Assembly (NCBI GenBank): GCA_913009755.1
Contig: CAJVWU010000003.1
Span: 1 to 64,000 of the forward strand
Reading direction: 5' to 3'
Source: an uncultured Bacteroidia bacterium
GTDB lineage: Bacteria; Bacteroidota; Bacteroidia; Bacteroidales; F082
Length of the DNA: 64,000 bases
A model generated the notes under the pieces. The model was not told the DNA's origin. It made no database searches and saw only the letters and a list, made by a program, of their open reading frames with translations. This document shows positions 11,430 to 25,105 of this stretch, piece after piece (the first letter of the stretch is position 1; each line of letters opens with the position of its first letter). A program made the translations under genes and the position numbers.

Positions 11430-14159
11430 TTACCTGACCACCAGCTTCCTGCTTCCGGACCTGCCATCGTAAGTCATTCGAACCGTGTAAATCCCAGAAG
11501 GCAGGTTCTCAATTCCGATTTGCTTTGTCAACATCCCGCCGGTGGTTTCAAATTCTCTATTCACTATTTGTTTCCCCGAAAAGTCAAATAAGTTGACCTG
11601 AACGGTTTGTCCGTCATCCGCATTGAGCGAAACATTAAAATACCCGGAAGCCGGGTTGGGAAAGATTTTAAAATCGGCGGTCTTCAGATTATTCTCCGGT
11701 GTGGCGTCATAAATATCCAGTTCATAATCCGCGGTAAACAATCCCCTGCCGTGGGAAGCAGCCAGCACAGTATTGTCGGCGTTTCGCAATTGCAGCATAT
11801 CCACCCTTACATTGGCCATACCATCCACTGCCGGTGCCCATTCGGTTGGATAGTCCATCAACGTGTTGGTTGCCCATACCCCGTTTTCGGTGGCCAGCAA
11901 AGCCTGACTGTTATTATCGGGATGGAAAATAGCCCACCTGATCGGCATGTCCGGCAGATTGGCTTCTTTTTCAGCCCATGTATCCCCACCGTCAAGCGTC
12001 AGCCAAACAGAAGAAACACCGTAATTGGAAAAGGTTACCAGCATAATATCCTCATTGCTTCCAAGTGCCACACATGAAATGTTGGCCGTGGGGAAATCGG
12101 GACTGCCGATATCTTCAACCTGCGGAATGTTATCCGCATTTGTAACTTTAAAGAGCTTTCCTGCTGTCGTTCCCACAAACAAGGTAGTTGTGCCCTGCGG
12201 TGCAAACCTTGAGTACTTAACATGCGAGAAGGGAACTGTGGTCCCCGTTCCCAGATAGATCAATTCAGAAGAGGCGTTTGAAGGAATTCCTTTTGCCCTC
12301 ATCAACCTGTCAGGGTGGTCACCGAAGAAAGTAACTGCATTGGCATACAGGATGTTCTCTTTGTAATCATAATCTGCCGGGCAAATGAACGTTCCCGAAT
12401 TTCCGTCAAAATCATCAACGGGATTTCCATTTACAAATATCGTGTAACGGTTGTAGTAATATGACGTAATAAATATGGATGATTGGTTGTTGTCCCAAAA
12501 ACAAAAAGCGCCGTCACCACCGTCTATCATGTCGTTAATATCAAGCGGTGAGCCGTTGTAATAAAGTGTTCCGTTATCCTGCAGGCCACCGATGTATTTT
12601 TTCGCTCCCGGTGTGGGACTGATGGCACACGTATAAAATTGCAAGGTGTTGTATCCCTGGTTGCGTTGGATAAATACCGGAAAACCCTGGTTTGCAGTAT
12701 TGGTAAGGAAAACCCCTCCGTCACACGAAAAAATAGCCGTTGTGGGTGTTCCGGGTTTATATTGGATGTTATGCTGGTCGGCATGGACATATTCATCACC
12801 TCCACCCCAATACATCAAACTCCAGTCGGATACATGTTTCCAGGAACCTCCTGCATTTTCCGATTTCCACAGGTCGAGGCCACCGGTAAAGATCACATCC
12901 GGGTTGGAAGGATCAACCTGAAGGATAAAAGCATGCCAGGCCAGGGTGGACCAGTCATTGTCAGGGCGTGAAACAGCCAGCCAGTTCGTCCCACCATCGT
13001 AAGATTTGGCAATATACCGCCCTTTATAATAAGTAAACCCGTTTACATATCCGGCAGCAAACTGGGCATACACCCGATTGGAATCCGACGGAGAAACCGC
13101 AAGTATGGTTCTTGCCGGTATATTATAATAGCCCTCGTTTTTGATCACCGTATTGTAATGATCATATATCGTCCAGCTTCCGGGCAATCCCGTATCGGAA
13201 TAAAGCACTGTGGCCCCTCCTTTTTTGTTCAGGTTTTCCATCGTGCCGACAAATATCCTCCCATTGGCAGCCATCTCAATATCGGAGGGAGTATAGGGAT
13301 CGTTGGCAAAACCCGGTATTAACGGCAACACCTGTTCCCAGGTCTGGCCGCCGTCATCCGACCGGTACAAACCGTCGCTGGGCTGGCTTTCATGGTCTTC
13401 ACCCATATAGATTCCCGAAGCCACGGCAGCATAGATCACACCAGTGCCATTTTCATCGCGTACAACGATATCAGTAATGTAGTCAAAGTCAGCGGTTGAT
13501 TCGAGCAATGTCCAGTTTTCACCGCCGTCATCCGTTTTAAAGATGCCGGCCCCCAGTCCCGATGATTCGCGATAGATGATGCGTGCTGTTTGTGCCTCGC
13601 CGGTCCCCACATAAAAAGTTTGGGTGTTATCTGGGTCGTAAGCCATGCAACTGATGGCCAGGTCGGGCCAGAAATCCCCAACCGGCACCCATTGTTCCGA
13701 AAGGTCGGTGATATCATCGGTGTACCATAATCCTCCCGTAACGCCGCCGGCCCATACTTTATTTGTGTAATTGGGATCGAACATGATCGTCCGTGTCCGT
13801 CCCCCCATATTGGCTCCTGTCGTTTCCCATTCAACAGGTGGGTCATAATCGCGTGATGCCTGTTGGCCGGTAACCAGTTGTTGCGTATATTTTTGAGCTT
13901 TCCACAGTCTCCTTTTGGGAACATAACCCAATGCCGGGTCAACGGTCGTAATGTATTCCTGGTAAGCCGCCATGTCGGGCTGGTCAGGTGATTTGGCTTC
14001 TTTACTACCGGTAATGGCCCGTTGCGTGATCTTTGATGATTGTTCATAAATGAATTCCTCATATTTTTCCCGGTCACTTTTTGTGTTTGTCACCGTGAGG
14101 GCAATGCCGGTTGTTAAAAGAAAAGCCAGGGAAATAAATACATATAAAGATTGTTTCAT
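11430..14159 (-). CDS. Secreted beta-propeller protein with T9SS C-terminal sorting domain
   Basis: The 909-residue protein starts with a signal peptide (MKQSLYVFISLAFLLTTGIA). It continues with a large propeller region carrying repeated Asp boxes of the sortilin/BNR type (TDDGGENWTLL, SDDGGQTWEQV, SYDGGTNWLAV, TLDGGDTWAEK). From about residue 830 it ends in a type IX sorting domain: FKIFPNPASGYFNVSL, then VNLFDFSGKQ, then LPSGIYTVRMTYDG and a final SRKLVVR. It should cross the inner membrane by Sec and the outer membrane by the T9SS whose core genes lie at 29.6-35.4 kb. No catalytic residues for a glycosidase could be picked out. It may be an adhesin or a binding protein. Confidence 0.9.
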   Translation of the reverse strand: MKQSLYVFISLAFLLTTGIALTVTNTKSDREKYEEFIYEQSSKITQRAITGSKEAKSPDQPDMAAYQEYITTVDPALGYVPKRRLWKAQKYTQQLVTGQQASRDYDPPVEWETTGANMGGRTRTIMFDPNYTNKVWAGGVTGGLWYTDDITDLSEQWVPVGDFWPDLAISCMAYDPDNTQTFYVGTGEAQTARIIYRESSGLGAGIFKTDDGGENWTLLESTADFDYITDIVVRDENGTGVIYAAVASGIYMGEDHESQPSDGLYRSDDGGQTWEQVLPLIPGFANDPYTPSDIEMAANGRIFVGTMENLNKKGGATVLYSDTGLPGSWTIYDHYNTVIKNEGYYNIPARTILAVSPSDSNRVYAQFAAGYVNGFTYYKGRYIAKSYDGGTNWLAVSRPDNDWSTLAWHAFILQVDPSNPDVIFTGGLDLWKSENAGGSWKHVSDWSLMYWGGGDEYVHADQHNIQYKPGTPTTAIFSCDGGVFLTNTANQGFPVFIQRNQGYNTLQFYTCAISPTPGAKKYIGGLQDNGTLYYNGSPLDINDMIDGGDGAFCFWDNNQSSIFITSYYYNRYTIFVNGNPVDDFDGNSGTFICPADYDYKENILYANAVTFFGDHPDRLMRAKGIPSNASSELIYLGTGTTVPFSHVKYSRFAPQGTTTLFVGTTAGKLFKVTNADNIPQVEDIGSPDFPTANISCVALGSNEDIMLVTFSNYGVSSVWLTLDGGDTWAEKEANLPDMPIRWAIFHPDNNSQALLATENGVWATNTLMDYPTEWAPAVDGMANVRVDMLQLRNADNTVLAASHGRGLFTADYELDIYDATPENNLKTADFKIFPNPASGYFNVSLNADDGQTVQVNLFDFSGKQIVNREFETTGGMLTKQIGIENLPSGIYTVRMTYDGRSGSRKLVVR

Positions 14160-18421: not shown

Positions 18422-19138
18422 TCAGACATACACAATTCCTTTTTCCGGGTCATAAACCGGAACGACCGGACTGCTGTTTCTTTGCAGACAAAATTCCACA
18501 TCTTTTTCAAAACCGTTTTCCACCAGAAAATTCAGGTGCCGGCAATTCCGTAACCTGTTTTTCAAATCCCCGGTTCCGCTTTTCCATGCTTTCCGGAGAA
18601 TATGTCCCAGGTCATCCGTTTTTACGGAAGTAAATTCCGAAAGTTTGTCAATGATCATCCCGGCACACAGGCCGTCGTCCAGTGAAAACCTGCCGTTGGT
18701 ACCCGCGCAAAGCAATATCAGTTTCTGGTTATTCTTAACCTGTTCTGTCACAGCATCCACATTTAGGAAAGCGCCGATAAAAACTTCCTTTGTCTTTTGG
18801 CAGGCTTTCATAGCCTTGGTCCCGTTGGTGGTGGTCATGATCAGAGTCTTTCCTTCAACGGTTTCCCGGATGAACTCCAACGGAGAATTTCCCAAATCGA
18901 AGCCGTCTATTTTCTTGGCATTTCGTTCACCGCATAAAAGGGAAGTTTCAGGTTTGTATTTTTTAGCTTCCGAAAGCACCATTTCATTTGTCAACACCGG
19001 TATAATCTTTTTCGCCCCGTTTTCCAGGGCAGTGATCATCACGGAAGTAGCCCGCAACACATCAATGACCACGACGGTTTTTCCTGAGATATCTTTTGCG
19101 TTTGCGACGTCGGCGAATGGATAGGTTTCGATGGTCAT
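18422..19138 (-). CDS. comB: 2-phosphosulfolactate phosphatase family protein
   Basis: ComB hydrolyses 2-phosphosulfolactate in archaeal and some bacterial coenzyme M and sulfolactate pathways. The 238-residue product shows the family run: VVVIDVLRATSVMITAL near residue 22, LLCGERNAKKIDGFDLGNSP, a TTTNGTKAM motif and LLCAGTNGRFSLDDGLCAG. All are intact, including the Asp/Arg of DVLRAT and the Asn/Gly/Thr of TTNGT. In Bacteroidota the family is common without coenzyme M, so the natural substrate may differ. No sulfolactate or coenzyme M genes are visible next to it. Confidence 0.85.
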   Translation of the reverse strand: MTIETYPFADVANAKDISGKTVVVIDVLRATSVMITALENGAKKIIPVLTNEMVLSEAKKYKPETSLLCGERNAKKIDGFDLGNSPLEFIRETVEGKTLIMTTTNGTKAMKACQKTKEVFIGAFLNVDAVTEQVKNNQKLILLCAGTNGRFSLDDGLCAGMIIDKLSEFTSVKTDDLGHILRKAWKSGTGDLKNRLRNCRHLNFLVENGFEKDVEFCLQRNSSPVVPVYDPEKGIVYV

Positions 19139-19393
19139 GGGACAAAGTTATTATTTATTTATTATCGGATTGTATCAGCCCGGATGACCCTGTCGGACGA
19201 GAATCCGAAAGAGTAGTGTTTTCAATGGAAATTTGTTCGTCCGGTTGATTTTTCTTTTTCCCCAAAAACACCTTCCAGAGTACCGGGGAATCGGTACATG
19301 GAAGTGTGTTTAAAATAAATACTGTCTGTCCGCAATGTTGGAAAATCAAAAAAAAGCGATTCTTTCTTCTTTGTCCGGAATGTTTTTACGAAC

Positions 19394-19972
19394 TTTATTT
19401 TTTCCGGAAGCCAGAAACATTTGTTGCTTTCCATGTTTAGCGATTATGGCAAACCGTTTTATCAGAGTTCCGAAATGCTGAACCTTGGAAAAATAAACAG
19501 TAAAACATATAAAGAATTTATTCACGAGTGGTTTGAAAAAAGCAAACGAACCATCGAACAATCTGCGCTTGATCTCATCATGAAATATACCCAGGTGCAT
19601 ACATTTTACGTCCAGTACCTTTGCAATAAACTTTACGGATTGCCTGTCAGAAAAATCACATCTGAAACTGTAACCGATACATTGTTAAGAATACTGGAAG
19701 AGAACGAAGTCATTTATTTTAACTATAAAGTGCTGCTCACTGGCAATCAGTTCAGGCTGTTGGAAGTTATTGCAAAAGAGGGGGGCGTTTCAAAACCCAC
19801 TTCAAAAGATTTTATCGGAAAATATCATCTGGGCACACCCAGTTCGGTGGGAGCCGCCATGAACGCACTGTTTAAAAAAGAAATGATTTTTAAAGAGAAT
19901 GGCCTGATCAAGGTTTATGACATCTTTTTTTCTCTTTGGCTGGAAAGAAGAACCACTGTTATACGGAATTAA
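19394..19972 (+). pseudogene. C-terminal fragment of an archaeal-type AAA ATPase
   Basis: The frame opens in the middle of an ATPase_2-like domain with FIFSGSQKHLLLSMFS, the sensor-1 strand of this family. It continues through the winged-helix C-terminus and ends with a KVYDIFFSLWLERR motif, all characteristic of the roughly 370-400-residue ATP-binding proteins (MJ-type AAA ATPases) common in Bacteroidota and archaea. The Walker A and B part is absent upstream; the preceding 200 bases contain no matching sequence in any frame. An internal TTG at 19,421 could start a short protein, but without the P-loop it would not be an ATPase. I consider it a relic of a mobile or defence-associated ATPase gene. 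Confidence 0.65.
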
Positions 19973-20196
19973 TAATAGTTTCAAAATTTTTCGGGACTTC
20001 ATATTTAAACTAAAGGTATTTGAATTTTAACAACGTGTAGCAATGCGAATCCCGCATGGGTGAAATTTCTTCACCTTCGATCCGATGATTTCAAGGTACG
20101 GACAGGTGCGAGCTGCCGGGCTGTTGTTCAGGCTTGAAGAATTATCATTTCCGTCTTTTTCTTAATTTCATTGTCTTAATAAACAGAGAAGCAGAA
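19973..20196. other. Spacer upstream of the ECF sigma operon
   Basis: No gene is supported here. An in-frame upstream extension of the sigma factor (from 20,134) would overlap this spacer but carries no sigma-70 residues. Confidence 0.4.
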
Positions 20197-20736
20197 ATGT
20201 TGAATTCAACAGAACCCGATTATAATACACAATTGGTCAGTCGTTGCAAAAAAGGCGACAAAGCGGCTCAATACAGGCTATACCTGGAATATGCCGATGC
20301 GATGTTCAATATTTGTAAACGGCTCGTATCAAACCGTGTGGATGCTGAAGATTTATTACAGGTTGCTTTTGCAAAGGCTTTTACAAAGCTTAACAAGTTG
20401 AAAAATAACAGAAAATTCGGCGGCTGGCTGAAAACAATTACCGTGAATGAATGTTTGAATTTTCTAAAAAAGAAAAAAATCGTTTTTGATGAATTGCCGG
20501 AAATTCCCGATGACACAAAAGAAACTGATGACGACAGAATTCAGATTGACAGTGAAACATTAAGAAAAGCCATGGACGAACTGCCCGAAGGAAGCAAGAT
20601 CATTTTTAACCTGTATCTGATTGAAAATTATAAACATAAGGAAATTGCCCGGATGTTGGGCATCTCCGCATCAACATCAAAATCGCAATATGCAAGGGCA
20701 AAACAATTGTTGAAAGATAAATTATTGAAAAAATGA
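20197..20736 (+). CDS. ECF-type RNA polymerase sigma factor
   Basis: The 179-residue protein has sigma region 2 at residues about 10-85. AEDLLQVAFAKAFTKL is the -10/core-binding helix, and FGGWLKTITVNECLNF follows. Region 4 lies at about 118-172 (RKAMDELPEGSKIIFNLYLI ... KHKEIARMLGISASTSKSQYARAKQLLK, the helix-turn-helix). The start at 20,197 is chosen because sigma factors of this class begin shortly before region 2. The next gene begins within its stop codon (ATGATG at 20,733), indicating translational coupling with the anti-sigma partner. It would direct RNA polymerase to promoters that respond to an envelope signal, by analogy with other ECF systems; its regulon cannot be read from the window. 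Confidence 0.92.
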   Translation: MLNSTEPDYNTQLVSRCKKGDKAAQYRLYLEYADAMFNICKRLVSNRVDAEDLLQVAFAKAFTKLNKLKNNRKFGGWLKTITVNECLNFLKKKKIVFDELPEIPDDTKETDDDRIQIDSETLRKAMDELPEGSKIIFNLYLIENYKHKEIARMLGISASTSKSQYARAKQLLKDKLLKK

Positions 20737-21275
20737 TGAAAGATAAATTTGAAAGATTGATAAAAAAAGTCACCGGAAATTTTGACGAACCTTTCCGGGA
20801 AAAAGAAATAGCATGGAAAGGGGTTGAACAAAAGCTCCATAAGCACAAAAAAAGAAAACTAAGCATCAGGTTAGGTATTGCTGCAAGTTTAATTATACTG
20901 GTTGGGTCAGGAACAATCTTTTTTGTTAACAACAATCAACCTACAGGTGCTGCTGATTATTGTTATAAAGTTTCGGAAGATCTTTCGGAAACGGAATTTT
21001 ACTATTCAGGCCTTATTGAGGATAAACAACAACAAATTAAAAATGCAAGACCATACGACAAAGATTTATTTAAACCATTTTTTAATGAGTTAAACCAGCT
21101 TGATCATCAATACAAAACCTATAAAACCGAGCTTAACGACTTTGGCTACCGTGAAGAATTAATAAGGGCCCTGATTGAAAATCAACAGCAGAAACTCAAT
21201 GTTTTAAATAAATTATTATCGAAAATCCAAAAAATTAAAAATTATGAAAACAGAAAAAAAGAATATCACTTTTAA
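20733..21275 (+). CDS. Putative single-pass membrane anti-sigma factor
   Basis: This 180-residue protein starts inside the sigma gene stop codon. It has a cytoplasmic N-terminus of about 45 residues (KFERLIKKVTGNFDEPFREKE, AWKGVEQKL), one membrane helix at residues 46-66 (IRLGIAASLIILVGSGTIFF), and a helical periplasmic part with ELNQLDHQYKTYKTELND. The layout and position are those of Bacteroidota anti-sigma factors, although no zinc-binding HxxxCxxC motif is present. The upstream ATG at 20,733 and a second one at 20,736 are both possible starts. The function is inferred from synteny and topology, not from a recognised domain. Confidence 0.7.
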   Translation: MMKDKFERLIKKVTGNFDEPFREKEIAWKGVEQKLHKHKKRKLSIRLGIAASLIILVGSGTIFFVNNNQPTGAADYCYKVSEDLSETEFYYSGLIEDKQQQIKNARPYDKDLFKPFFNELNQLDHQYKTYKTELNDFGYREELIRALIENQQQKLNVLNKLLSKIQKIKNYENRKKEYHF

Positions 21276-22386
21276 TCTCCTTCTCATTTTCTGCTTAATC
21301 ACATTTTCAGGATTTGCGCAGGATGATTTGATTTCAAAAGTTAAAACCATCGTGAAAACATTTGACCAACCCAACATTGAATATTTCGGGGTTACAAATA
21401 TTTTCGGAAATGTTGACATCAGTTACTGGGATCAGAAAAAAATGAAAATAACCGTCACGATCAAGGTAATTGCCTGGGAAGAAGATGATGCGGAAAGGTT
21501 TATTGAGAAACTAACACCTGAAATAAAAGTGTCTGAAGGCAAAGACGGAAAGGTTAGTGTTTATTCGGCAATAGATATTTCCCATATTAAAAATCTATGT
21601 GGTTGTGGTAATAATGATAGAAAAGTTTATGCACCATGGTTTAAAAAGAATGCCGAAGTAAAACAATTCAATGTCAGTTATGATGTAAAAATACCTGCAT
21701 CGGTTAATAAAATGGATTTATACAACCGCTATGGCAATATGAGCATCCCTGATTTTGAAGGCAATATGTCAATTCAACTGACCAATGGGAATTTGAAAAC
21801 AGGGAATTTGAAACTATCGGATAACGATATAGGAATTCGTGTTCGCTATGGTAAGGTCAATTTGGAAAGTGTTGAAAACTCAAAACTAAATTTGTATTCC
21901 TGTAATGATGTAAGCATAGGAAATATCGGAAATGTAAATTTAACGAGTAAGTTTTCTGACATTAATATAACTTCTTGTTCGGGATTGGTTTTAAATTCAG
22001 AGAGCGACAACATCACCATCGGTAACCTGACATCATTAAAGGGAAGCGGTAATTTTACCAGCCTTAAAATAGGTAATCTTGTTAGCTCAATAGATTTTGA
22101 TAATAAGAGCGGTGAAATAGAGATAGTTAAAATCAATCCCGGTTTTAAAAACATTTCTTTGGCCGGGCAGTTCAACGATTATATCTTAAATCTCAATAAC
22201 CTGAACTATTCCATTTTTGCAGAATTGGAATTTACAGATTTGAAAAGTGACAAAACCATTTACCCCGAACAGAAAAGGAAAGGATTGATTAATGGAAAGG
22301 CGATTATTGAAAAGCAAATTGGCAACCAGACCGGGGATTCTCATGTAAACCTGAAATGCTCAAATTGTAATGTGGTTTTGCAATAG
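21244..22386 (+). CDS. Secreted DUF4097/GIN-like beta-helix protein
   Basis: The 380-residue product has a signal peptide (ITFNLLLIFCLITFSGFAQ). A body of short regular beta-strand repeats follows (NVDISYWDQKKMKITVTIKV, MSIPDFEGNMSIQLTNGNLK, NVNLTSKFSDINITSCSGL), typical of DUF4097 and putative auto-transporter-adhesin head (GIN) folds. A Cys cluster (NLCGCGNND) lies near residue 120 and a CSNC near the end, which is unusual for the fold and may bind metal or form disulfides. It overlaps the anti-sigma frame by 32 bp, so it is the third gene of the sigma operon and a plausible sensor or output of that system. The role is otherwise unknown. Confidence 0.72.
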   Translation: MKTEKKNITFNLLLIFCLITFSGFAQDDLISKVKTIVKTFDQPNIEYFGVTNIFGNVDISYWDQKKMKITVTIKVIAWEEDDAERFIEKLTPEIKVSEGKDGKVSVYSAIDISHIKNLCGCGNNDRKVYAPWFKKNAEVKQFNVSYDVKIPASVNKMDLYNRYGNMSIPDFEGNMSIQLTNGNLKTGNLKLSDNDIGIRVRYGKVNLESVENSKLNLYSCNDVSIGNIGNVNLTSKFSDINITSCSGLVLNSESDNITIGNLTSLKGSGNFTSLKIGNLVSSIDFDNKSGEIEIVKINPGFKNISLAGQFNDYILNLNNLNYSIFAELEFTDLKSDKTIYPEQKRKGLINGKAIIEKQIGNQTGDSHVNLKCSNCNVVLQ

Positions 22387-22811
22387 GTTATAATACGATG
22401 AAAATTCCATGCGCTGGGCTGTGGACTTTGTGGATAACCTGTTGTATCTGAAATGGCAGGGTTTTGACAAAGTCCCTGCGTCCCGTAGGAGCAGTAAAAA
22501 CCCGAGACAACAACCTGCTTTAAGCGTCCCCTTAAAGCAATTAAATCATCAAGTTAATAAAGGTTCAGGCAAGGACACTTGAACCCGGTTTGCTAGTATT
22601 ATGTGTTTTTTCTTTTTCCGTTGTTGGTGTCCTCACCAACAACATTTGTACACCAGATAATATGCCGTTGGTGAGGACACCAACGGCGGGCGGGGAAAGG
22701 CGGGGACACCAACGACGGAGATAATCCCGAAGGGAAGAAATGATTATAGAACCGGAAAAAATGAAAATCAACCTCGAAGAGGTGACATGAATAAATAATT
22801 AGCTGCTTCAA
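22387..22811. other. Repeat-bearing spacer
   Basis: No convincing gene is visible. A short readable frame (MRWAVDFVDNLLYLKWQGF, from 22,409) looks like a relic and is not recognised. The rest holds the inverted-repeat pair described in the next entry. Confidence 0.35.
22620..22687. repeat. Two opposed copies of the GTTGGTGTCCTCACCAAC palindrome
   Basis: Copy one (22,620-22,643) has perfect 10-bp arms around a TCCT loop. Copy two (22,664-22,687) has 10-bp arms around an AGGA loop and is the reverse complement of copy one at its 18-base core. Relatives occur at 61,692-61,709 (one mismatch) and, more distantly, at 59,403-59,426. This looks like a family of mobile or interspersed palindromes. 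Confidence 0.8.
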
Positions 22812-22858
22812 AAACACTCTTCCAGGTACGCCGGGGCGTACTCTGGAAGGTGTTTTTT
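22812..22858. terminator. Strong bidirectional hairpin terminator
   Basis: An almost perfect stem (AACAC-CTTCCAG-TACGCC paired with GGCGTA-CTGGAAG-GTGTT, single-base bulges) is followed by a T-run to 22,858. It lies between the plus-strand secreted gene and the minus-strand glycyl radical enzyme gene and could serve either. The minus-strand side is preceded by A-rich bases. Confidence 0.7.
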
Positions 22859-22872
22859 ATCTCCCCACCCCA

Positions 22873-23934
22873 TCAGAATTCCTCATTCTCCGTCCTTCTG
22901 ATAATCTCGTCCTGAAGTTCTTCACCGAGGTCGTTGAAATAATCGCTGTAACCGGCCACGCGGACGATCAGGTCTTTGTAATCCTCGGGATGTTTCCGGG
23001 CCTTGCGTAACGTATCCGCCGTCACCACATTAAACTGGATGTGGTGGCCGTCCATCCGGAAATAGGAACGGATCAACTGAACCAGTGAATCCAGCCCTTT
23101 TTCATCCTCCAGCAGAGATGGTGTGAATTTCTGGTTGAGCAAAGTGCCACCCGTCCGCAGATGGTCTATTTTTGCTGCCGACTTGATCACTGCAGAAGGC
23201 CCTTTGCGACAGATGGCTGCCATCTGCATCAGTTCGATTTTCCTGTCCTCGTCTTTTTCTTCTTCCGACAGTTTTTCCAGTGTGTCGGCATGCCGTTCGG
23301 CAAAGCAGATGACAGCACCGGCAGCAATGTCCATGGCTTTCAGTTCTTCCCGTTTTGCAAATGCTTCGGGATCGTTGAAAAAGTCCAGATTCTCAATGGC
23401 TTGGGCAATTTCCTTTTTCAGGTCGAGGAACCCTTTCCGGAACATCTTCTTTCCGAGCACGGTATGTCCCGGCGCTCGCTGTTCCTGGAACTCGGTGAAC
23501 ACACCTGCCACGTAAGCATCATGCCATTCTTTATCGAGATTTTTAAATATCAGATCACGGTTTGATTTCCCTTTCCAGAAAGGGATGATCACATCACGAT
23601 AAACGTTCATGGTTTCTTTGTCCACCCTGAACCACACTTTCGGCCGTGTGTCTAATGTTTTCAGGTCTTCGAGCGAGTGGAGTGTGATCTCGGGGTAGGT
23701 GGGCACCGCTTTGGGAACAGGACCGCGTTCGCCGACGATCAGTTCGCCGTCGTTGATACAAATCTTTTTATTTTCCAGAATGTATTCGAAGGCCAGCGCC
23801 CTGCGCACGGGCACCGACACCTGATGTGCCAGGTCACTCTTGTAAAATTCGGTGACAAGCAACGCCCGCTCTGCCGATATGCGCGGGATGGCGTTCTGGC
23901 TCTGGTCGCGGAGTTTTTTTATTTTTTTGTTCAT
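22873..23934 (-). pseudogene. Glycyl radical enzyme (HypD-like) with large internal deletion
   Basis: Glycyl radical enzymes such as 4-hydroxyproline dehydratase are about 780-800 residues long and use a C-terminal glycyl radical with a central Cys. This 353-residue frame is open throughout. Residues 1-244 match the N-terminus (INDGELIVGERGPVPKAVP, FTEFQEQRAPGHTV, KGFLDLKKEI). From residue 245 it jumps to the C-terminus: GPSAVIKSAAKIDHLRTGGT, DGHHIQFNVV and the glycyl loop VRVAGYSDYF (Gly about 328), ending DEIIRRTE. The catalytic Cys and about 430 intervening residues are absent. The junction is at about 23,199-23,206. No activase gene is adjacent. It is either a deletion remnant, an assembly artefact, or a reduced protein with a non-enzymatic role. 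Confidence 0.85.
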
Positions 23935-23953
23935 GGTTTATTCTTTTTATCCT

Positions 23954-23973
23954 CCCAGGCTTGAAGGCCTGGG
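23954..23973. terminator. Small GC hairpin between rlmN and the glycyl radical enzyme
   Basis: CCCAGGC and GCCTGGG form a 7-bp stem around a 6-base loop (TTGAAG), preceded on the plus strand by a T-rich stretch. It could be a weak terminator for rlmN on the minus strand or part of a leader. Function uncertain. Confidence 0.4.
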
Positions 23974-24026
23974 TAACTGATTTGTGTCTATCCGGGTTTC
24001 GAAGCACATCAGTTTCCCCGTCCCTG

Positions 24027-24044
24027 CCCGTCCGGTCAGGCGGG
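24027..24044. repeat. REP-like 18-bp palindrome CCCGTCCGGTCAGGCGGG
   Basis: This is identical over 18 bases to copies at 3420-3437 and 50,580-50,597. The ends pair as CCCGTC with GGCGGG. It lies in the spacer downstream of rlmN. Confidence 0.75.
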
Positions 24045-24082
24045 TTTTAGGGCGAGTAAATAAAAACAGCTGTATTAAATTT

Positions 24083-25105
24083 TCAGGAATTTTTGATCAT
24101 CTCTTTTGTCGAGAGCAAACCGCAGGCGGCATCAATATCCCGGCCTCGGGAAGCCCTGACGGTGGTCAATATCCCCTTGGCGTTCAGTGCATCTTTAAAT
24201 TCCTGTAACCGCTGTTCATCCGTTGTTTTAAGGGGTGTATTGGGTATCTGGTGAAAACGGATCAGGTTGATACGGCAACGTATGCCATTTAAAATGCGTG
24301 CCAGCTCTTTCACATGACGGGGGGTGTCGTTCAGTCCTTGGAAAACGATATACTCAAACGAAACCCTGCGCTGTCTGCCGAGGTCATGGGTTTTGATCTC
24401 ATTCAAAATATCATCAATGGAATATTTGTGGCTGACCGGCATGAGTATTTTGCGTTCACTTTCAAAAGGGGTATGCAGACTCACGGCAAGATGACAACGG
24501 CTGTTTTCGAGGAAATGCTTCATGGCGGGGACAATCCCGATGGTGGAAACCGTGATCCGTCGCGGGCTCCAGCCGTAACCCCATTCAGCGGTGAGTACCT
24601 CCAGACTTTTCATCACCTCATCAAGGTTGTCAAAAGGTTCGCCCATACCCATGTAAACGATGTTGGTCAACTGGTCACGTTCGGGCAGGCTTTCGATTTG
24701 ATTTAGTATCTGATTGGATGTCAGGTTGGCCTGAAGCTCCTGCCTGCCTGTCATGCAGAACAGGCATCGCATCTTGCAGCCTACCTGCGAAGAAACACAA
24801 AGTGTGCTTCTTTTGTCTTCGGGAATAAAAGCCGATTCGATATAGCCACCGCCGGCTTTGAACAGGTATTTTTTGGTGCCATCGGCAGAGGTCTGCACAT
24901 TAATGGGGTTTCCCAGGCCAATGTTGTAATTCTCATTCAGCAGGGCTCTTGCCTTTTTCGACAGGTTGGTCATCGTGTCAATGGAAGTTACTTTGTTTTT
25001 ATACAGCCAGCCGGCAATCTGTCCTGTCGTAAATTTTGGTAAATCCAGATCCGAAACAATTTGCTGTAACTCTGCTAACGTTTTGCCGAAAAGGGGTTCA
25101 TTCAT
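24083..25105 (-). CDS. rlmN: 23S rRNA/tRNA A2503-type methyltransferase RlmN
   Basis: RlmN is a radical SAM enzyme that methylates C2 of adenosine 2503 in 23S rRNA and A37 in some tRNAs. The 340-residue length is normal. The CxxxCxxC iron-sulfur motif is seen as CKMRCLFC in VGCKMRCLFCMTGRQE. The catalytic mechanism also needs a C-terminal Cys, present in GRDIDAACGLL. The GMGEPFDNL and SLHTPF segments are further family markers. There is no sign of the resistance paralogue Cfr, although the two are hard to separate by eye. It is a single housekeeping gene with a 148-bp gap to the glycyl radical enzyme gene. Confidence 0.93.
   Translation of the reverse strand: MNEPLFGKTLAELQQIVSDLDLPKFTTGQIAGWLYKNKVTSIDTMTNLSKKARALLNENYNIGLGNPINVQTSADGTKKYLFKAGGGYIESAFIPEDKRSTLCVSSQVGCKMRCLFCMTGRQELQANLTSNQILNQIESLPERDQLTNIVYMGMGEPFDNLDEVMKSLEVLTAEWGYGWSPRRITVSTIGIVPAMKHFLENSRCHLAVSLHTPFESERKILMPVSHKYSIDDILNEIKTHDLGRQRRVSFEYIVFQGLNDTPRHVKELARILNGIRCRINLIRFHQIPNTPLKTTDEQRLQEFKDALNAKGILTTVRASRGRDIDAACGLLSTKEMIKNS

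Follow-up and report, generated by a model that had tools for sequence, protein, structure and literature searches.

A hypD gene without its middle: a probable recent deletion pseudogene with an open reading frame in a Bacteroidales genome

Introduction

The window analyzed here, a stretch of 64,000 nucleotides from an uncultured bacterium of the Bacteroidales family F082 (assembly GCA_913009755.1, contig CAJVWU010000003.1), contains an uninterrupted frame that begins and ends like the glycyl radical enzyme HypD (trans-4-hydroxy-L-proline dehydratase) and lacks the part in between. The question is whether this frame encodes a small working protein, arose from a faulty assembly, or is what a deletion left of an ordinary gene. 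A gene can be dead even when its frame is open and well conserved and its glycyl radical motif intact, and annotation by the glycyl radical domain alone would falsely credit this bacterium with hydroxyproline dehydration. Checking for the activase gene and for a repeat at the junction settles most of the question. The comparisons described below argue, with good confidence, for a recent, non-functional deletion pseudogene of a normal hypD operon, its junction being known from the assembly alone. The finding is one of ordinary gene loss, of a kind already known.

Results and Discussion

The frame joins the two ends of HypD

A preliminary description of the window, made from the letters alone, had reported a 353-codon open frame with a HypD-type start and an intact VRVAGYSDYF loop. 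Translation and profile searches bear out both statements and place the frame on the reverse strand, which had not been specified (Table 1). In Pfam searches, the remnant matched profile positions 1 to 248 of 647 in PF02901 (PFL-like; E, 1.3e-62) and then positions 8 to 106 of 106 in PF01228 (Gly_radical; E, 9e-33), so that the C-terminal glycyl radical loop expected of HypD is present, with VRVAGY intact. The best NCBIfam match was the HypD model NF043068, which was hit in two stretches with 485.7 bits versus a cutoff of 1100, a score short of full membership in the HypD family. Aligned with the solved HypD chain 6vxc, residues 4 to 246 of the remnant corresponded to residues 28 to 269 and residues 244 to 350 to residues 701 to 807, with the middle absent. 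Two strong matches to both ends of one family within a single frame cannot be due to chance.

Table 1. Features of the hypD remnant and its surroundings (window coordinates)
Feature	Coordinates	Strand	Remarks
hypD remnant	22873..23934	-	353 codons, ATG start, stop included; HypD residues 1 to ~243 joined to the last ~109
N-terminal retained part (PFL-like domain, first ~242 codons)	23209..23934	-	Profile and structure alignment
Deletion junction CGCAAAGGGCC within short direct repeat	23198..23208	-	Orthologue comparison; coordinates by arithmetic
C-terminal retained glycyl radical domain	22873..23197	-	Profile and structure alignment
Glycyl radical loop VRVAGYSDYF, intact; Gly codon 22951-22953	22936..22965	-	Translation; coordinates by arithmetic
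Gap between rlmN and hypD remnant	23935..24082	-	148 bp; site of the HypD activase gene, upstream of hypD, in most relatives
rlmN-like gene, upstream neighbor	24083..25105	-	Precedes the activase-hypD pair in G002 as well
comB-like gene, first shared gene downstream	18422..19138	-	In G001 also downstream of hypD

That the middle of the enzyme is missing together with its catalytic Cys, as had also been proposed, was confirmed by comparison with relatives. The catalytic Cys motif GCVE is absent from the remnant; all nine prepared orthologues have it at residue 430, which lies in the missing part; a strict motif scan found both GCVE and the glycyl loop in 76/76 closed full-length relatives. The catalytic Cys/Glu loop (Cys434 and Glu436, C. 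difficile numbering) is lost, both residues falling within the missing 434 codons. According to excerpts of a mutational study of C. difficile HypD (PMC7077986), activity was not detectable in variants of C434, E436, D278, D339, S334, F340, H160, and G765, and was reduced but kept in single variants of Y450 and T645. When these ten residues, as given in the excerpts, were placed on the remnant by an arithmetic offset, D278, S334, D339, F340, C434, E436, Y450, and T645 lay within the missing stretch, and H160 and G765 remained.

The missing stretch is bounded by a short direct repeat

Exactly 1302 nt (434 codons) are missing from the remnant, whose frame has 1062 nt versus the 2364 nt of its orthologues. 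The orthologue length is uniform: 8 of the 9 prepared orthologues have 2364 nt (787 residues), and the ninth, from G004, is cut by a contig end. Among the five other genomes compared for the genus, four carry a full 787-residue hypD, and the fifth, again G004, has a 730-residue open piece at the contig end. The preliminary description had placed an in-frame loss of about 430 residues at 23,199-23,206, a position that the junction at 23198-23208 spans.

In G001, one of the two nearest relatives, the two ends of the corresponding stretch share the sequence CCGCAAGG(T/G)GCCT, 12 of 13 bases being alike and in the same register. The copies in G001 are CCGCAAGGTGCCT and CCGCAAGGGGCCT, and the window keeps a single copy, CGCAAAGGGCC. 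Consistent with this arrangement, BLASTN matches of the two halves of the remnant to G001 overlapped by 15 nt at the junction (23194-23208). Both copies of the repeat encode Arg-Lys-x-Pro in one frame; recombination between them therefore keeps the frame open, and no selection is needed to explain its openness. The repeat is short and imperfect: its uninterrupted matches measure 8 and 4 nt in G001, 5 nt in G002, and 2 to 4 nt in six other relatives compared, and longer repeats occur elsewhere in hypD (three pairs of 11-mers in G001; five pairs of 11-mers and two of 12-mers in G002). With the ends of the G001 gene standing in for the repeat of the ancestor, which is not at hand, we infer a microhomology deletion at this repeat, of which the open frame can be a by-product.

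Deletion pseudogenes that arise between short direct repeats are ordinary in bacteria. The remnant resembles them in its internal deletion at a short repeat, in the loss of its partner gene (see below), and in belonging to a gene of patchy occurrence in the family. It differs from them in that it has stayed in frame, the two repeat copies having a common reading frame, and in that it has no substitutional decay yet. Among the papers listed in literature searches, judged by their titles and the opening lines of their abstracts, none dealt with a truncated HypD.

The activase gene is gone as well

A second lesion, which the preliminary description had not claimed, adjoins the first: the gene for the HypD activase, as a rule a neighbor of hypD, is no longer there. 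An activase gene lies directly upstream of hypD in G002 to G005, G012, G013, G144, G149, G156, and G157 (264 to 294 codons as called); in the more distant G014 it lies downstream of hypD; and in G001 the last 14 activase residues are found at the contig edge, upstream of hypD. Among the 76 closed full-length loci, an activase occurs at most 1.5 kb upstream in 67. The others comprise six without a match but with a flank of less than 900 bp, two (L052 and L082) without a match despite longer flanks, and one (L109) with a 42% match elsewhere in the locus.

The neighbors on both sides indicate that the comparison is between corresponding loci. Upstream, a gene that we take from its sequence to be rlmN and two further genes are common to the window and G002, in which an 852-aa gene and a 423-aa open reading frame (ORF) are added. 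Downstream, a gene that is presumably comB, as named from its sequence, and the next two genes are common to the window and G001; the window adds genes at 19421-22386 and is without one small gene. From these partly shared neighbors it follows that the locus is orthologous and that the intact hypD is ancestral, a conclusion in line with the full-length hypD and upstream activase found when the locus was compared across the genus, as the preliminary description had suggested doing. Within the gap that takes the place of the activase gene, positions 23973-24033 resemble the activase-hypD spacer of G001 (84% over 61 nt), and the same stretch also belongs to a dispersed repeat family.

The rest of the remnant's own genome (4.05 Mb assembled into 165 contigs, 98.35% complete) yielded no HypD activase either; the best match had 21% identity. 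With the activase model, the best score in this genome was 28.8 bits versus a cutoff of 174.35, and G002 to G005 reached 271 to 305 bits. A cognate radical SAM activase is thus found neither beside the remnant nor in the assembly, and the glycyl radical activase that the preliminary description had proposed to seek elsewhere in the genome did not turn up above the cutoff. The genome has 19 matches to PF04055, and activation by one of these other radical SAM enzymes was rejected as unlikely on the scores, none of which exceeds the activase cutoff. At E 1e-40, an activase match was present in 46 of the 50 HypD-positive genomes of the family; the four without one are the remnant's own genome (G000), G001, G017, and G021, the absence from G001 being explained by its contig end. 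The lack of an activase match is thus not peculiar to the remnant's genome, which weighs somewhat against reading it as a lesion. The activase gene could in principle sit in the unassembled ~1.6% of the genome.

A short dispersed repeat family covers window positions 23960-24050 and occurs at four places in the window's own genome (this one included), 13 in G001, 4 in G002, 1 in G013, and none in G156. The copy at 23960-24050 may have taken part in the deletion of the activase gene.

The retained codons are clean

The retained codons were tested for substitutional decay, and none was found. The analysis of dN/dS used 9 of the 10 prepared sequences, with G004 left out because its contig ends within the gene and with one junction codon omitted. 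The pseudogene reading predicts relaxed selection, and no rise in omega was seen: the branch of the remnant had an omega of 0.070 versus a background of 0.054 (2dlnL, 0.52), and control branches gave 0.038 (G001), 0.043 (G002), and 0.064 (G156). Neither part of the remnant differed significantly from background (N-terminal part, 0.092 versus 0.063; C-terminal part, 0.024 versus 0.028). The upper 95% limit of the branch omega, ~0.135, implies that at most ~8.5% of the branch was neutral. There are no stops in the retained codons versus ~12 expected under neutrality along the whole branch, which gives a looser bound of ~24%. Across 105 near-invariant positions, R4K is the only change, as judged from the 63 of the 76 closed relatives that are exactly 787 aa long. 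In the gene tree, the window gene falls outside the G001-G002 pair with 74% support.

These clean codons fit either a recent loss or continued constraint on the remnant, which the tests cannot tell apart, and a deletion dating from the final ~8.5% of the branch would likewise be expected to leave them so. Recent loss is far more likely, because the activase and a partner enzyme are missing.

Does the remnant work, and is it real?

The retained C terminus had raised the idea of a small protein of the YfiD type that keeps the radical domain. The remnant is like YfiD/GrcA (TIGR04365 and NF038360) in that it ends in a glycyl radical segment and has no catalytic Cys; these models gave it 43 and 70 bits. 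It is unlike them in that these scores are far below the cutoffs (170 and 158 bits, respectively), in that its 353 aa include a 243-residue HypD N terminus, and in that neither a partner enzyme nor an activase was found in its genome. YfiD serves as a spare part for oxygen-cleaved PFL, the radical being installed by the PFL activating enzyme, according to excerpts of PMC8683613. The only PF01228 match in the remnant's genome is the remnant itself, and NrdD was found in none of the six genomes of the genus (the search control matched in 6 of 14 genomes). Since YfiD needs a PFL-type partner and an activating enzyme, and neither was found in the genome, a YfiD-like role of the remnant is not supported, and the repair protein was rejected as a candidate. 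Of the earlier interpretation, then, the in-frame deletion stands, now with a short direct repeat at its ends, and the small radical-domain protein does not.

A broader version of this idea is that selection maintains the joined N-terminal and radical domains as a functional mini-protein, either a carrier like YfiD/GrcA or a binding partner. The open frame, the intact glycyl loop, a branch omega of 0.070 that is not different from background, the omega of 0.024 in the C-terminal part, and the absence of stops, of which neutrality along the whole branch would predict ~12, would all be accounted for. However, no other glycyl radical gene, no activase over the cutoff, and no NrdD were found with which such a protein might act, and the fusion was seen in one genome only among the family, order, and class matches listed, so that we consider this explanation very unlikely. 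It also seems highly improbable that a 353-residue protein is made and kept as stand-alone HypD N-terminal and radical domains in a role that needs no catalytic Cys or activase, such as ligand or partner binding. AlphaFold2 gave the remnant a mean pLDDT of 67.9 and a pTM of 0.60, roughly half of the radical domain scoring below 50, compared to 80.3 and 0.84 for a full-length orthologue. Both models were built with the same 30 sequences (the window protein and 29 of the 76 closed relatives). The lower confidence, which is not a measure of stability, speaks weakly against a mini-protein and agrees weakly with a dead remnant.

The other alternative is an artefact of assembly or of a strain mixture, in which the genome would have a full-length hypD, and the activase with it, and the contig would have been joined or collapsed wrongly. 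The fragmentation of the assembly into 165 contigs and retained codons that look fully live speak in its favor. However, the repeat shared by the two ends, which agrees in ~12 of 13 bases in G001, is shorter than the usual word size of short-read assemblers. In addition, two separate lesions, in the activase gene and in the middle of hypD, would both have to be artefacts, and a whole-genome search with the remnant as the query returned one match only, as the corresponding search for the activase returned none. An artefact, though the main rival reading, is therefore unlikely, if less so than a working mini-protein.

The preferred explanation remains a deletion pseudogene: the gene has lost essential parts that intact orthologues at this locus still have. 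Like HypD (NF043068; PDB 6vxc and 6vxe), the remnant has both ends of the same family, an orthologous locus, and an intact glycyl loop; unlike HypD, it is without 434 central codons, the catalytic Cys, most substrate residues, and a detectable activase. The starting state would have been that of the relatives, a full-length hypD (787 aa) with the activase gene upstream. A slipped-strand or microhomology deletion would then have removed the middle of hypD with the frame staying open, and the activase gene would have been lost too, so that the hypD operon would have disappeared by at least two deletions. The product, if made, would be catalytically dead, being without the catalytic Cys, most substrate residues, and a known enzyme to install the radical; for these reasons we infer a dead remnant, and the open frame is almost certainly dead. 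Very probably, the radical enzyme with which this bacterium degraded hydroxyproline is gone, and the route that it provided from trans-4-hydroxyproline to pyrroline-5-carboxylate would have gone with it. On this reading, the clean frame reflects how recent the loss is and not the maintenance of a mini-protein.

Distribution of hypD and of the fusion

The occurrence of hypD in the family is patchy: 50 of 173 genomes contain a HypD-like match at E ~4e-60 or better (hand count, own genome included). From named genomes, 80 loci were collected, of which 76 were closed genes of 760 to 830 aa; the others were two contig-cut genes, one of 833 codons, and one of 714 codons. Homologues with the same junction, a check named in the preliminary description, were absent among the family, order, and class matches listed. 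No second fused hypD was found in the 173 family genomes (60 with any match) or among the matches listed for 393 genomes of the order (193 with any match; up to five candidates scored per genome), and there was none in 395 genomes of the class at E 1e-30 (4 with a match); a distant one may escape the order and class searches. The three genome sets overlap, and the window's own genome is counted in each. One candidate, L042, was matched over query positions 1 to 336 and was rejected because it is a full-length frame of 788 codons. A natural family of mini-HypD proteins was likewise rejected, since there was no other fusion among the matches listed at any of these ranks.

Some relatives have broken hypD genes of another kind. 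In G149 (L126 6699-9061) and G014 (L127 7323-9841), hypD is split into two overlapping frames, for which frameshifts or sequencing errors are possible explanations. G161 has hypD fragments with stops, which may be real or may be sequencing errors.

Other features near the locus

Several further features were noted around hypD. On the forward strand, window positions 19388-19951 match the C-terminal half (residues 186 to 373; 68% identity) of a 373-aa ORF that adjoins hypD in G157, and the N-terminal half of that ORF has no match within the window; to judge from this alignment, the stretch is probably another gene that has been cut short in the vicinity of the locus. In G002, spacers that look alike by eye (L117 6989-7134 and 8407-8877) flank the additional 423-aa ORF between rlmN and the activase gene, in the manner of an insertion. 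Downstream of the remnant, positions 22618-22719 hold clustered inverted and direct copies of a GTTGGTGTCCTCACCAAC element. Two similar imperfect hairpins, 3.5 kb apart, lie at 22801-22865 and 19256-19315; they start with AAAAACAC and CTTCCAG, contain two GTAC each, and both weakly match G001 positions 11930-11952 (L116) over 22 to 23 nt (E, 0.16 and 0.55).
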